In this document: in pieces, positions 34,569 to 39,139 of the stretch | Position numbering within the stretch: the first letter of the stretch is position 1 | Layout of the letters: every line of letters begins with the position of its first letter | DNA from: Candidatus Woesearchaeota archaeon | GTDB taxonomy: Archaea; Nanobdellota; Nanobdellia; Woesearchaeales; UBA583 | DNA length: 39,139 nt | Direction of reading: 5' to 3' | Assembly: GCA_027858315.1 (NCBI GenBank) | Contig: JAQICV010000058.1 | Span: forward strand, 1-39,139 | The notes under the pieces: model-generated | Told to the model about the DNA's origin: nothing | The model's input: only the letters and a program-made list of their open reading frames with translations | Database searches by the model: none | Program-made: the position numbers and the translations under genes

Positions 34569-34641
34569 TCTTACTTAGAAGTAGTTAAATAGTAAAATTA
34601 AGCACCTAAATTTTAAGTTAAAAGAAATAATATTTATTCTG

Positions 34642-34922
34642 CTTTAAGATTTTCTTAAAGTGGTTAAAATTGCTTTAGCAATTTTATTCTTCGCCAGCTT
34701 CTTGAGAAGCTCCAAAGTCAATATCTTAAACCTGCTCCACAGAGGCACCCATGTGATACAACTTAAAATTTTGATAGTAAAATTTTAGTTATATGATTTA
34801 AGTTAAAAGAAATAAGTATTTTTATTCTGCTTTAAGTAAAACTTAAAGTTGTTAAAAATAATTTTGTATTTTTATTCTTTAAATCTTAATTTAAAGTGGT
34901 TAAAATTGCTTTAGCAATTTTA
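34642..34922. other. Stem-loop family with covarying arms between prs and the PRC-barrel gene
   Basis: Three stems share one pattern but differ in compensating bases: CTTTAAGA/TCTTAAAG (34642-34660), CTTTAAGT/ACTTAAAG (34830-34848), CTTTAAAT/ATTTAAAG (34877-34896). Alternating with them are AAAATTGC/GCAATTTT (34666-34685 and 34902-34921; the latter overlaps the PRC-barrel stop) and AAAAATA/TATTTTT (34854-34873). This 380-base gap holds no gene. Confidence 0.6.
34655..34727 (-). repeat. 73-base duplicate of the PRC-barrel 3' end (copy A)
   Basis: These 73 bases are identical to 34891-34963, which cover the last 14 codons, the stop and the first 3' bases of the PRC-barrel gene. Beyond 34727 the copy diverges. 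It is a gene-end fragment left by duplication. Confidence 0.85.
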
Positions 34923-34963
34923 TTCTTCGCCAGCTTCTTGAGAAGCTCCAAAGTCAATATCTT
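34891..34963 (-). repeat. 73-base direct repeat (copy B, in the PRC-barrel gene)
   Basis: The parent copy of the exact repeat at 34655-34727. It spans the end of the PRC-barrel coding region. Confidence 0.85.
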
Positions 34964-35189
34964 GAACAATAATAATGTCTCCAAATGCTTTGAAGAATTT
35001 TTGAGGAATTATTACACCTTTTGCATCTTTTACTTTGCTTGATAGTAAAGAACCTGGAACTGCTTTTATTTTCCAGCTTTTAATTCTGTTTTCTTCGATT
35101 AGTGCTTCTTCGATTTCTCCGAAAAAGTAACCAGTGTCTGTGAAAACTTTCATCTCGTACACATCTGAAATTCTTTTGAATCTTGCCAT
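34920..35189 (-). CDS. PRC-barrel domain protein
   Basis: The 89-residue protein is a single PRC-barrel: MARFKRISDVYEMKVFTDTGYFFGEIEEALIEENRIKSWKIKAVP shows the paired strands with a central Gly, and GVIIPQKFFKAFGDIIIVQ the last strands, followed by an acidic tail QEAGEE. Archaeal PRC-barrel proteins of this size include the CdpB cell-division proteins that bind SepF, and RNA- or stress-related proteins; the exact role is not settled here. It is the last gene of a cluster with a membrane protein and a second PRC-barrel. Confidence 0.75.
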   Translation of the reverse strand: MARFKRISDVYEMKVFTDTGYFFGEIEEALIEENRIKSWKIKAVPGSLLSSKVKDAKGVIIPQKFFKAFGDIIIVQDIDFGASQEAGEE

Positions 35190-35878: not shown

Positions 35879-36145
35879 TTATAATATATCCTCTTCAGAG
35901 ATTACAACAAAGTCGCCGATTGCAATTACGGAATGGAAGGGTACTAAGAAATCACCATTAGTATCTTTCTCAAGACTTACATCTTTTACATACTTAGTAG
36001 GATTTACCAATGTGAAATCGATAATCTCACCTGTTTTAGTATCAAATACTAAATCTCCTACCTCTCCAAATTTTTTCCCGCTCTTACTTACAACAACTCT
36101 GTCAAGTAGTTTTTTTGCTAAAATTTTCTCTTTTGCTTCAGCCAT
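35879..36145 (-). CDS. PRC-barrel domain protein
   Basis: The 88-residue protein has the classic PRC-barrel pattern: LLDRVVVSKSGKKFGEVGDLVFDTKTGEIIDFTLVNPT followed by LVPFHSVIAIGDFVVISEED. It is distinct in sequence from the PRC-barrel at 34920-35189. Order of transcription: this gene, the membrane protein, the second PRC-barrel gene. A scaffold or division-related role as in CdpB is possible. Confidence 0.82.
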   Translation of the reverse strand: MAEAKEKILAKKLLDRVVVSKSGKKFGEVGDLVFDTKTGEIIDFTLVNPTKYVKDVSLEKDTNGDFLVPFHSVIAIGDFVVISEEDIL

Positions 36146-36292
36146 TTTTAAATTAGTTGATAGTAAATTTAGTTTTATATCATTTAAATACTTTGTGGTA
36201 AATGAGGTTTTTAGGGTTAGAATTAAGATAGTTAGTATTAGATTATTTTATCTTATTTAGATAGTTTCTTTTTAATATCAATTTGATACATT

Positions 36293-36475
36293 CTAAAGTC
36301 TAATACAATTACTTTTATCGTAATCTTCAGAATTCAAGGATTCATCATATAACTCTTCTAATTCTAACTGCTCTTTATCAGATACATTTACTACTTCATT
36401 TAGTTCATCTCTAACAGCTTCTCGAATTAATTTATATAAATCATCTCTACTAATGTTAATAATATCAGTTCCCAT
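36293..36475 (-). CDS. Orphan antitoxin-like protein
   Basis: The 60-residue protein (NISRDDLYKLIREAVRDELNEVV, then VSDKEQLELEELYDESLNSED) matches the layout of small archaeal antitoxins whose partner gene usually follows. Here the 147 bases after its stop (36146-36292) contain no toxin frame. A TATA-like CTTATAAATA lies 22-30 bases upstream. It may act on a toxin encoded elsewhere, or be a remnant. Confidence 0.55.
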   Translation of the reverse strand: MGTDIINISRDDLYKLIREAVRDELNEVVNVSDKEQLELEELYDESLNSEDYDKSNCIRL

Positions 36476-36510
36476 ACTATAATTATGATTTTATTATTTA
36501 TAAGCTTTTT

Positions 36511-36582
36511 TAGAATATTATCTTGTGTTAGTTATTTGTTTTAGAAAAGAGTTTTGGTATTCAAAAAAGTTAAGGCAAGAAT
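36511..36582 (+). repeat. Dispersed repeat copy R1
   Basis: Contains the 36-base core (36545-36580: AAAAGAGTTTTGG...TTAAGGCAAGA). Matches R2 over 55 bases (36528-36582) with about three differences and R3 over 64 bases (36517-36580) with about four. It has an imperfect outer dyad CTTG..TTA/TAA..CAAG and an inner TTTTG/CAAAA stem. It lies 3' of the MazF toxin gene. Confidence 0.8.
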
Positions 36583-36632
36583 ATAAAAAATTTACGAATC
36601 GAAGCCGAGAGTATCCTAAAAGAACGATTTTT

Positions 36633-36968
36633 TTATTTTGAAATAATTTGATTTATTCTTTTACAAACTTCTTTATATTTTTCATTATTTAAGCTACAAA
36701 CTTTAAATTCAATAGTCTTTTTCTCACCAGTAAATAACATATTACATCGAATATAACTATCCTTATGCAAAGAGCCTTCTATTGTTTCATTTTTTCCTAA
36801 ATTAATTGTAAATTCATCTTTCTGAATTCCTAAAGAAGTTAGTTGACAAAGTAAAATATCATTTCTCATCTCATTTGACAATATCAAACAAGGTCTTAAT
36901 TTTGTACCTTTTAAATTTGTAAAAGGAAAAGGATACATTACTATTTGACCTTTTGTAAATGTGCCCAA
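36633..36968 (-). CDS. mazF: MazF/PemK-type toxin
   Basis: The 111-residue toxin is an mRNA endoribonuclease of the MazF/PemK family: GQIVMYPFPFTNLKGTKLRPCLILS carries the beta-barrel and the conserved Arg-Pro, then DILLCQLTSLGIQ, and EGSLHKDSYIRCNMLFTGEKKT, the later Ser-x-Ile region. It begins with TTG 36968; GGAGGA lies 9 bases upstream within the antitoxin gene, supporting this start. The gene overlaps its antitoxin by 28 bases. Repeats R1 and R2 flank the pair. Confidence 0.85.
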   Translation of the reverse strand: MGTFTKGQIVMYPFPFTNLKGTKLRPCLILSNEMRNDILLCQLTSLGIQKDEFTINLGKNETIEGSLHKDSYIRCNMLFTGEKKTIEFKVCSLNNEKYKEVCKRINQIISK

Positions 36969-37183
36969 GCTTCATCTTCCTCCTTAGATAGCCAATTTTT
37001 TGCTAAAGAGTTTTCACTAGCCAAAGCAGTTTCCATCCCAGACAATTCATCTTCTTCAAATAATTTTTCTCGAAGAGTTTCTCTAATAAAATCTTGTATA
37101 CTATCATATCCATGCATATCTACATATCCTTTAGCAGAATTCAACATTTTATCTGAGAGTTTTATACTTATTTGCGTACCCAT
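36941..37183 (-). CDS. Ribbon-helix-helix antitoxin of the MazF pair
   Basis: The 80 residues start with QISIKLSDKMLNSAKGYVDMHGYDSIQDFIRETLREKL, an RHH DNA-binding domain like other CopG-type antitoxins, and end in a Glu-rich toxin-binding tail (SGMETALASENSLAKNWLSKEEDEAW). It should repress its own operon and neutralise MazF. Transcribed first, with TATA-like TTTAAATAC at 37208-37216. Confidence 0.78.
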   Translation of the reverse strand: MGTQISIKLSDKMLNSAKGYVDMHGYDSIQDFIRETLREKLFEEDELSGMETALASENSLAKNWLSKEEDEAWAHLQKVK

Positions 37184-37270
37184 AAATACTAATATGTATT
37201 CTTAAGTATTTAAATGTATTCATTCCAAGAAAAAAGTTTTATTAATATCCATTATAAGTCTTAGCATTTT

Positions 37271-37329
37271 ATGTTTAGAAATTTGTTTTAGAAAAGAGTT
37301 TTGGTATTCAAAAAAGATAAGGCAAGAAT
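37271..37329 (+). repeat. Dispersed repeat copy R2
   Basis: Core at 37292-37327 (one base different from R1). It lies 3 bases 3' of the RelE toxin stop and upstream of the MazF pair, so it separates the two toxin-antitoxin modules. Confidence 0.8.
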
Positions 37330-37331
37330 TT

Positions 37332-37580
37332 TCATTGAATGTATTTATGATAAAGATCTAAGAATATTAGTAAATTTTCTTTCTCTATATAGATATAAGA
37401 TAAACGATAAGGTGATATGTAAAGTTCTCTAGTTCCCTTTCTTGTATATTTCATAGGTTTTCCTAATTCAGGATTATCTTTTAATTTACTTACTTGCTTG
37501 ATAATTTTATCTTTCATTAATTGGTCTTTTATTTTTGAAAACTTTTTTTTGAAATGAGGATCATAATTTACATTTACCAC
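37332..37580 (-). CDS. relE: RelE/ParE-family toxin
   Basis: The 82-residue protein has the RelE/ParE fold: YDPHFKKKFSKIKDQLMKDKIIKQVSKLKDNPELGKP (two helices), MKYTRKGTRELYISPYRLSYIYI, and LLIFLDLYHKY in place of the usual ILxLxHR. RelE toxins cut mRNA in the ribosomal A site. It starts with GTG 37580, overlapping the antitoxin by 7 bases. Confidence 0.82.
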   Translation of the reverse strand: MVNVNYDPHFKKKFSKIKDQLMKDKIIKQVSKLKDNPELGKPMKYTRKGTRELYISPYRLSYIYIEKENLLIFLDLYHKYIQ

Positions 37581-37840
37581 TTTTTCATATCTTCAATAAA
37601 GTCGTCAAATTTAATAGCAGTATCTTTGCTTGCATCAATTCTTTTATATGCTTCTTCAGTCTCTTTGGCAAATTCCAGATCTTCCTCTAGGTTCTTACTA
37701 AAATCTGAGACTTTCTTGATTATAAATTGATTATCTGATTTAATTAAAACTAACTTATCTCCTTCTAATAAATCTCCTCTAAGTTCTGAGGGAATAACTA
37801 TTTGACCTTTAGAACTAACTTTAGTTATTGCAATATCCAT
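37574..37840 (-). CDS. AbrB/SpoVT-type antitoxin of the RelE pair
   Basis: The protein (88 residues from ATG 37840) begins MDIAITKVSSKGQIVIPSELRGDLLEGDKLVLI, the AbrB/MazE swapped-hairpin DNA-binding domain, and ends with an acidic toxin-binding part. The ATG at 37852 is rejected because the TATA box (37862-37869) would then be too close. AbrB antitoxins with RelE-type toxins are common in archaea. Confidence 0.82.
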   Translation of the reverse strand: MDIAITKVSSKGQIVIPSELRGDLLEGDKLVLIKSDNQFIIKKVSDFSKNLEEDLEFAKETEEAYKRIDASKDTAIKFDDFIEDMKKW

Positions 37841-37861
37841 AGTAAGATACATCTTACTTAA

Positions 37862-37869
37862 TTTATAAA
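37862..37869 (-). promoter_or_regulatory. TATA box for the AbrB-RelE operon
   Basis: TTTATAAA lies 22-29 bases upstream of ATG 37840 and fixes that start. Confidence 0.5.
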
Positions 37870-37881
37870 AGTATCTTTTTA

Positions 37882-37952
37882 CATAGAATTATCTTGTGTT
37901 AGTTATTATTTTTATAAAAGAGTTTTGGTATTCAAAAAAGTTAAGGCAAGAC
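37882..37952 (+). repeat. Dispersed repeat copy R3 (head of array unit 1)
   Basis: Matches R1 over 64 bases (37888-37951), core 37916-37951. It stands upstream of the AbrB-RelE operon and is also the first part of tandem unit 1 (37882-38140). Confidence 0.8.
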
Positions 37953-38140
37953 TTTCTGAATATTCTATTCAGAATGCATCAAAATTGTATTTTGATAAGT
38001 TGATAATTCATAATCTTTCTCACCTTGTTCAAAAACACCATATCAACAATATCTATGATATTATTGGAATAGATTTTAGAATTGACATTCTAAGACCATA
38101 ACTCGATAAAGTTTAGCTGTAAATAAAATTATTTATTTTG

Positions 38141-38226
38141 CATAGAATAATCTTTTTTATTAGTTATTTGTTTTTAGAAATAAAAAAAATTTGTTGGTCA
38201 TAGTATTTTAAAAAATAAGGTAAGAC
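38141..38226 (+). repeat. Diverged repeat copy R4 (head of unit 2)
   Basis: Starts CATAGAATAATC like R3's CATAGAATTATC, then TTAGTTATTTG..TTTTAGAAA, and ends ATAAGGTAAGACTT. The central GGTATTC core is replaced by an A-rich stretch. It is almost identical to R5. Confidence 0.65.
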
Positions 38227-38416
38227 TTTATGAATATTCGTATTCAGAATGCATCAAAATTACATTTTGATAAGACGAAAATTCATATTCTTTCTTACCT
38301 TGTTCAAAAACACCATATCAATAATATTTATGATATTATTGGAATATATCTTAGAATTAACATTCTAAGACTATAACTCGATAAAGTTTAGCTGTAAATA
38401 AAATTATTTATTTTCG

Positions 38417-38502
38417 CATAGAATAATCTTTTTTATTAGTTATTTGTTTTTAGAAATAAAAAAAATTTGTTGCTCATAGTATTTTAAAAAATAAAGCAAG
38501 AG
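38417..38502 (+). repeat. Diverged repeat copy R5 (head of unit 3)
   Basis: Nearly identical to R4 for about 80 bases, then ATAAAGCAAGAGA. It ends the array of five R-type elements. Confidence 0.65.
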
Positions 38503-38573
38503 AAATAATTCACATCATTCTCTTACCTTGTTCAAAAACACCAACTCGATAAAGTTTAGCTGTAAATAAAAAA

Positions 38574-38652
38574 AGAAATTCTTTTCAGAATTTCTAGTCA
38601 TTGTTTCAAAATTGAAACAACAAATTGATGTTTAAAAAAGGATAAATCCTTT
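38574..38652. other. Three stem-loops at the S-layer gene stop
   Basis: AGAAATTC/GAATTTCT (38574-38595), TTGTTTCAA-AA-TTGAAACAA (38601-38620) and AAAGGAT-AA-ATCCTTT (38637-38652). The last overlaps the stop codon of the minus-strand S-layer gene (38651-38653), so the stems begin at that gene's 3' end. Confidence 0.55.
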
Positions 38653-39139
38653 ATTGAACATTAACATTATCACCAGATAAACCACCAGCGTTTAATTCAG
38701 TTACAGCAGCAACAGTGTCTGCTTTAGTGTAACCATAAACTAATACGGACTTGGAATCTTCGAAGTATCTAATAACTCCTTCACCAGCTGAAACTCCAGC
38801 TTGCTCAGGTGTGTATACTTCAATATCTAATAATTCTCTAGCAGCAGCGTTAACAGCAGGACCACCAACAACAATTGCATTTTCAATTGAAGCTTCACTG
38901 TCCATCATAGGAGCAGCAACATCAAACTCAACAGCTTCAGAAGACATAGTCTCTTGATCTACAATTGAGTAACCAGCAGCTTCTAATTCAGCTAATTTAT
39001 CTTCAACATCTGCAGCATCTACAGTTGCAGACATTGTTGTACCAGTTTCACCAAAGTTAAAGGAAACTTCTCCATAAACTTCTTCTTCTGGAACTTCAAT
39101 TTTAACTGAATCTAATTTGTCAGTATCTACAGTAACTCT
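38651..39139 (-). CDS. S-layer protein, C-terminal part (N-terminus off the window)
   Basis: The frame is open from the right edge to the stop at 38651-38653, giving the last 162 residues. IENAIVVGGPAVNAAARELLDI, AGVSAGEGVIRYFEDSKSVLVYGYTKADTVAAVTEL follow the C-terminal S-layer domain of archaeal (MJ-type) S-layer proteins, a VGGP-N motif, then GEG-I and a G-x-DT-AA stretch. Its Ala/Glu/Val-rich composition and codons stand out from neighbouring genes and fit a very abundant cell-surface protein. An internal ATG at 39034 is not the start; the frame continues upstream. Confidence 0.8.
   Translation of the reverse strand, partial: RVTVDTDKLDSVKIEVPEEEVYGEVSFNFGETGTTMSATVDAADVEDKLAELEAAGYSIVDQETMSSEAVEFDVAAPMMDSEASIENAIVVGGPAVNAAARELLDIEVYTPEQAGVSAGEGVIRYFEDSKSVLVYGYTKADTVAAVTELNAGGLSGDNVNVQ

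Follow-up and report, generated by a model that had tools for sequence, protein, structure and literature searches.

How do two unrelated toxin-antitoxin (TA) modules come to lie, in one direction, between copies of the same short repeat on an archaeal contig? The window, by which we mean the whole 39,139-nt contig under analysis, carries near one end three direct repeats of 57-72 bp, R1 (36511..36582), R2 (37271..37329) and R3 (37882..37952), and on the minus strand the order reads U3/R3 - AbrB-RelE - R2 - RHH-MazF - R1, where U3 is a structured non-coding unit. A sequence-only reading of this DNA had placed the three copies at these positions, had described the R copies as alike in orientation and both modules as read in one direction, which is the minus strand throughout, and had likened the layout to the cassette arrays of TA-rich superintegrons. 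With moderate confidence, we read the locus as a small accretion array, in which minimal TA cassettes lacking an integrase entered by site-specific insertion and R would serve as a locus-specific, att-like site.

Two modules between copies of one repeat

Both type II TA blocks are small, same-direction units bounded by direct repeats, and neither contains an integrase. Cassette 1 (37330..37881, minus strand), which extends about 550 bp from R2 to R3, holds an AbrB-RelE module with its own promoter and operator palindrome and encodes an AbrB/MazE-type antitoxin (37574..37852, minus strand; PF04014, 9e-8) and a RelE/ParE toxin (37332..37580, minus strand; PF05016, E=4.8e-8; TIGR02385). Cassette 2 (36583..37270, minus strand), about 690 bp from R1 to R2, holds an RHH-MazF module with its own promoter, comprising an RHH-type antitoxin (36941..37183, minus strand; DUF6290 at 1.5e-4, below the cut-off, with weak RHH/NikR/RelB matches) and a MazF/PemK toxin (36633..36968, minus strand; PF02452, E=2.3e-11). 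The gene content proposed from the letters alone, AbrB-RelE within R2-R3 and RHH-MazF within R1-R2, was thus borne out, with PF05016, PF04014 and PF02452 all above cut-off, and the gene stops do sit close to R copies, 2 bp separating relE from R2 and 50 bp separating mazF from R1. By eye, a TATA-like box could be recognized for each module, downstream of an R copy. With RelE in one module and MazF in the other, the two are unrelated, and simple tandem duplication cannot account for the array. Judging by where homologs in relatives begin, abrB probably starts with the ATG at 37840 (MDIAITK...); the palindrome AGTAAGATGTATCTTACT spans this start and resembles the AGTAAGATTAATCTTACT operator in relatives. 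Directly behind R1 lies a 60-aa ORF (36293..36475, minus strand) with its own TATA-like element and no Pfam or NCBIfam match above cut-off, possibly an orphan antitoxin, a guess from its length and position. At the other end of the array is the 3' part of an S-layer-like protein gene (38651..39139, minus strand), cut by the contig end.

The longest string exactly shared by R1, R2 and R3 is 25 bp (AAAAGAGTTTTGGTATTCAAAAAAG), whereas 200 shuffles of the region yielded no exact repeat of any kind longer than 16 bp, and the repeats are therefore not a product of chance. R1 and R3 are 90% identical across about 70 bp, and R2 has 53-55 bp in common with them at 89-95% identity, its promoter-side arm being unlike theirs; conservation within R is highest in the half adjoining the stop of the preceding toxin gene and not in the promoter half. 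The 36-base core ascribed to the three copies is present, apart from a single mismatched base in R2. The dyads also ascribed to R, inner and outer, fared less well, since R1-R3 fold into hairpins as single-stranded DNA no better than shuffles do (z -1.2 to 0). That the element lacks the attC consensus was confirmed: neither RYYYAAC nor GTTRRRY occurs in R1-R5 on either strand, and no suitably spaced pair of these motifs exists within 36000-38700.

Beyond R3 the array continues as three tandem AT-rich copies of a non-coding unit (37882-38571, minus strand), which form a 275-bp tandem repeat: U3 (37882..38139), U4 (38143..38415), which is 93% identical to U3 and includes R4 (38143-38225), and U5 (38419..38571), a shortened copy that lacks two hairpin blocks and includes R5 (38419-38501). 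These stretches are structured, as first supposed, with fold z-scores of -6.6 (minus strand) and -5.8 (plus strand) for U4, -3.8 for U3 and -2.3 for U5. R4 and R5 are indeed diverged relatives of R, 96% alike and both 64-68% identical to R1/R3, but they belong to the 275-bp tandem unit. Read on the minus strand, U3-U5 start with TTTATTTACAGCTAAACTTTATCGAGTT and close with the stem AAGGTRAGA/TCTTRCCTT, and their 3' strands are R3, R4 and R5, respectively. R1 and R2 correspond to the 3' half of the U stem only, with TA genes in place of the 5' half, and look like extra copies of a U 3' end. On the minus strand, the closing stem pairs in all three units through G-U changes, yet the changes are one-sided and none is compensatory, and it is for this reason that we call it only plausible that U is a transcribed RNA. 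No Rfam family matched U, searches elsewhere in the genus returned weak AT-rich matches only, and the 26-base 5' end of U had no match in viral contigs.

That R is instead a shared upstream regulatory or non-coding RNA element, selected in front of each TA promoter, we consider improbable: R does lie upstream of each module's TATA-like element, the repeats of two congeners described below likewise include or adjoin promoters, and U folds far above shuffles (z -6.6), but the conserved half of R adjoins the preceding toxin stop, the promoter half of R2 differs, AbrB-RelE occurs elsewhere without R, and R alone has no significant fold.

Distribution of R and repeats around related modules

In its own 1.77-Mb draft genome R occurs at this locus only; searches of 99 relatives, five of them congeneric, gave nothing above AT-rich chance matches, and exact patterns of the R core were absent from viral contigs and GTDB genomes. 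The idea that R is an element spread through related archaea is therefore not upheld. Confinement of R to this locus, with no gain or loss of R-to-R blocks in relatives, had been named beforehand as the outcome that would speak against a cassette array; the first half is what we found in the own genome and the 99 relatives, and since those relatives lack R, no empty site and no gain or loss of blocks could be seen. Nor is a tyrosine recombinase, for which a search had been proposed, linked to the element: inspection by eye of the ORFs in the window revealed no recombinase, and the four PF00589 matches in the own genome are all on other contigs, where R does not occur.

AbrB-RelE is patchy in the order, being present in 145 of 353 genomes, and the closest relative (63% identical) comes from outside the genus. 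We compared 350 bp upstream of each module with 60 bp past the relE stop at 77 loci, the own locus excluded, and counted matches scoring at least 26. The flanks were made this narrow because, in a random-segment control with wide flanks, local repeats were commoner than cross-locus ones (14/348 at score 31). Direct repeats surrounded AbrB-RelE at 11 of the 77 loci, whereas the controls stood at 1.5% for cross-locus pairs and 2% for random segments taken from the same loci (12 of 616; p=7e-6), and in eight of these 11 the right copy began 1-10 bp from the relE stop, as against 27% of chance matches (p=0.002); both p-values are somewhat optimistic, since the score threshold and flank sizes were set after a first look with wider windows. 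The excess was present at every threshold tried. About 85% of the AbrB-RelE loci have no detectable repeat, and the genomes used are nearly all draft assemblies, in which repeats may be misassembled. Evidence from RHH-MazF is weaker, with five of 29 loci, the own locus included, at or above the 99th percentile of controls and several of these repeats of low complexity or promoter-like.

From locus to locus the AbrB-RelE flanking repeats are unlike in sequence and range from 17 to 125 bp, and several are the 3' end of a host gene, either a tRNA or a protein gene. At one locus (L162), AbrB-RelE lies between a complete, intron-containing tRNA-Leu and, on the far side, a second copy of that tRNA's 3' end; when we asked which copy is ancestral, the acceptor stem favored the distal copy and the T-stem the proximal one, an ambiguous outcome. 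In genome G047 (L195/L196, G047:C16:40072-54382), a complete tRNA-Phe is followed by five tRNA 3'-end fragments (at 49140, 49734, 51545, 53752 and 54366) that delimit blocks of 9.0, 0.6, 1.8, 2.2 and 0.6 kb in that order, the last of which is AbrB-RelE. A Phage_integrase gene (8.9e-20), encoding a tyrosine recombinase, stands beside the tRNA-Phe at the start of the first block. This 9-kb block also carries an ERCC4-domain gene, and later blocks carry RHH and RelE-type genes. Among protein genes, the repeat corresponds to the terminus of an oppositely oriented UDG-family gene (L194), to that of an amino-acid permease gene (L179), or to the last codons of the upstream gene (..SLMVKVK*, ..IDESLGL* and ..YSKK* at L158, L151 and L102, respectively). 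In the 1.16-Mb genome G167, a 17-bp repeat has only three copies, all inside 3.2 kb, and these bound AbrB-RelE together with a second block of 2.5 kb, in which an RHH gene and a PIN-type ORF were recognized by eye (L160).

The window holds a further gene-end repeat, away from the array. A gene at 34920-35189 ends in ..DIDFGASQEAGEE*, and this 3' end plus the region downstream of it has a second copy about 236 bp further along, 88% identical (34631-34731 and 34867-34967), the two copies enclosing a non-coding stretch, a duplicated gene end like those described above.

Two congeners carry repeat-separated TA arrays of their own. In G003 (L065, G003:C26:5650-7430), the ortholog of the S-layer gene is followed directly by three copies of another repeat, one that is confined to this place in its genome, and each copy precedes a TA pair or TA remnant; the R array occupies the same place, and the position behind this gene is possibly an insertion hot spot. 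A common origin of R and the G003 repeat was rejected (p 0.3-0.9). G002 has a cluster of 16 ParE/RelE genes, and its contigs C12 (L229) and C20 (L228) consist almost entirely of head-to-tail TA pairs with shared intergenic repeats; these contigs may be pieces of a larger TA array broken across several contigs. The TA pairs on these two contigs have a common promoter motif, AATTAAACCAAAGNTTTTTATA, and a downstream repeat. Some G002 modules are paralogous, and duplication thus also contributes there.

Proposed site-specific insertion and its alternatives

Under the reading that we favor, each cassette would comprise a promoter, an antitoxin and a toxin only (0.55 and 0.69 kb), and site-specific recombination would have brought the two in successively at the U3 3' end on the minus strand, presumably through a circle. 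Every insertion would leave one more copy of the U3 3' end, namely R, which would act as an attachment site specific to the locus and not as a family-wide attC. A tyrosine recombinase would act in trans, or would once have sat beside the cassettes; we propose action in trans because the cassettes lack a recombinase, and the tRNA-Phe array of G047 suggests the same. Once inserted, the addictive TA genes may keep the array from loss.

Several observations argue for insertion. Tandem duplication alone would not set two non-homologous modules in one register relative to R, and in R1 and R2 the 5' half of the U stem is missing. The scattered occurrence of AbrB-RelE across the order points the same way, as do the repeats that flank it at 11 of 77 other loci and that are often gene 3' ends. 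Congeners G003 and G002 have repeat-separated TA arrays built on other repeats, and insertion explains why other cassettes carry other repeats. Against it count the lack of a recombinase on the contig and the absence of R from the contigs with PF00589 matches, its absence from the relatives searched, the roughly 85% of AbrB-RelE loci without a detectable repeat, the ambiguous ancestral-copy result at tRNA-Leu and the lack of compensatory base changes in U. A different target for each bare cassette, if real, also weighs against it, as the att site must then change with the host, unlike that of a classical integrase.

Two other explanations are, in our judgment, unlikely. In the first, staggered breakage with subsequent repair, or a transposition-like process, places modules at gene 3' ends, and the repeats are long, variable target-site duplications rather than attachment sites. 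Repeats of 17-125 bp whose sequence is new at each locus fit this proposal well, as does a boundary fixed at the toxin stop with a free target, which would let one TA family use many targets. Such a process would not be expected to give two unrelated modules the same R in the same register, nor to place an integrase next to the tRNA in the tRNA-Phe array; moreover, the repeat copies at L158 differ at two sites only, both seemingly synonymous, as if the second copy had come from another host's gene.

In the second, homologous recombination alone suffices: an older R-TA-R segment was duplicated in tandem and one module was later replaced or captured via the shared flanks, with the G002 and G003 arrays arising likewise. 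The 275-bp tandem duplication of the U units, the paralogy of many G002 modules, with their common promoter and downstream repeats, and the confinement of the R copies to the array are all accommodated by this scenario. It sits poorly with the unrelatedness of the RelE and MazF modules and with the shortness of R as a substrate for homologous exchange, and most repeat-flanked AbrB-RelE loci are single gene-end insertions, not duplicated arrays.

Known arrays and the possible movement of TA pairs

The cassette-array layout is real: unrelated modules share the R array, congeners hold similar arrays, and AbrB-RelE elsewhere shows an excess of flanking repeats. The likeness to superintegrons proved geometric only, as R has neither attC motifs nor a significant hairpin and is not a site shared across the family, and no recombinase was recognized by eye on the contig. 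Missing attC motifs, together with folding of R that equals that of shuffles, indicate that the array is not an integron. Integrons with TA cassettes have been described in archaea (PMC9668308), and like these integrons and CALINs the R array has small, same-direction, TA-rich cassettes that are separated by repeats, often with no integrase nearby; unlike them, it has cassettes with their own promoters and a repeat that is unique to one locus and lacks an attC core or significant hairpin.

Accretion of integrase-less elements at gene 3' ends appears to be the better comparison. In CIMEs and the tandem accretion of ICEs and IMEs, elements without integration genes lie between attachment repeats and are stacked at one site (Pavlovic 2004; reviewed in PMC5704250), and the R array resembles CIMEs in its repeat-bounded blocks, which lack integration genes and stand in tandem at one site (PMC5704250). 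Whereas CIMEs are described as decayed larger elements, each block here is one TA pair of 0.55-0.7 kb, the targets are many, and the distance from repeat to toxin stop is often 1-10 bp. As in CIMEs, the repeat is the 3' end of the target gene at several homologous cassettes, while at R the target would be the structured unit U, a putative gene; a candidate helper integrase at the same site is present in the G047 tRNA-Phe array and not at R. The ssrA islands of Dehalococcoides (PMC3146451) are likewise built of tandem blocks, some of them devoid of an integration module, with the repeated 3' end of an RNA gene at the block boundaries, but they are large and use a serine recombinase and one fixed target, whereas the archaeal TA blocks are small and their targets locus-specific. 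Clusters of unrelated TA pairs also occur in TAS islands (Makarova 2009, PMC2701414), which tandem duplication could not explain and for which preferential incorporation was proposed; that proposal named no site, whereas at the R array both the site of incorporation and the ends of the cassettes can be seen.

TA modules are routinely called mobile, and bare TA pairs of 0.5-0.7 kb that, in related archaea, appear often to sit at duplicated gene ends hint at a route by which they move. We tentatively suggest, with more doubt than conviction, that bare type II TA pairs in this archaeal order may be mobile cassettes with fixed ends, from the promoter side to the toxin stop, which duplicate the 3' ends of genes or RNA genes on insertion, stack, and are moved in trans by a recombinase acting on changing targets, a form of integron-like capture without a universal site. 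If fixed cassette ends at duplicated gene 3' ends hold true, the movement of TA pairs would become directly testable, a TA island could be taken to record one insertion after another, and archaea would possess an attC-free parallel to TA-rich integrons.
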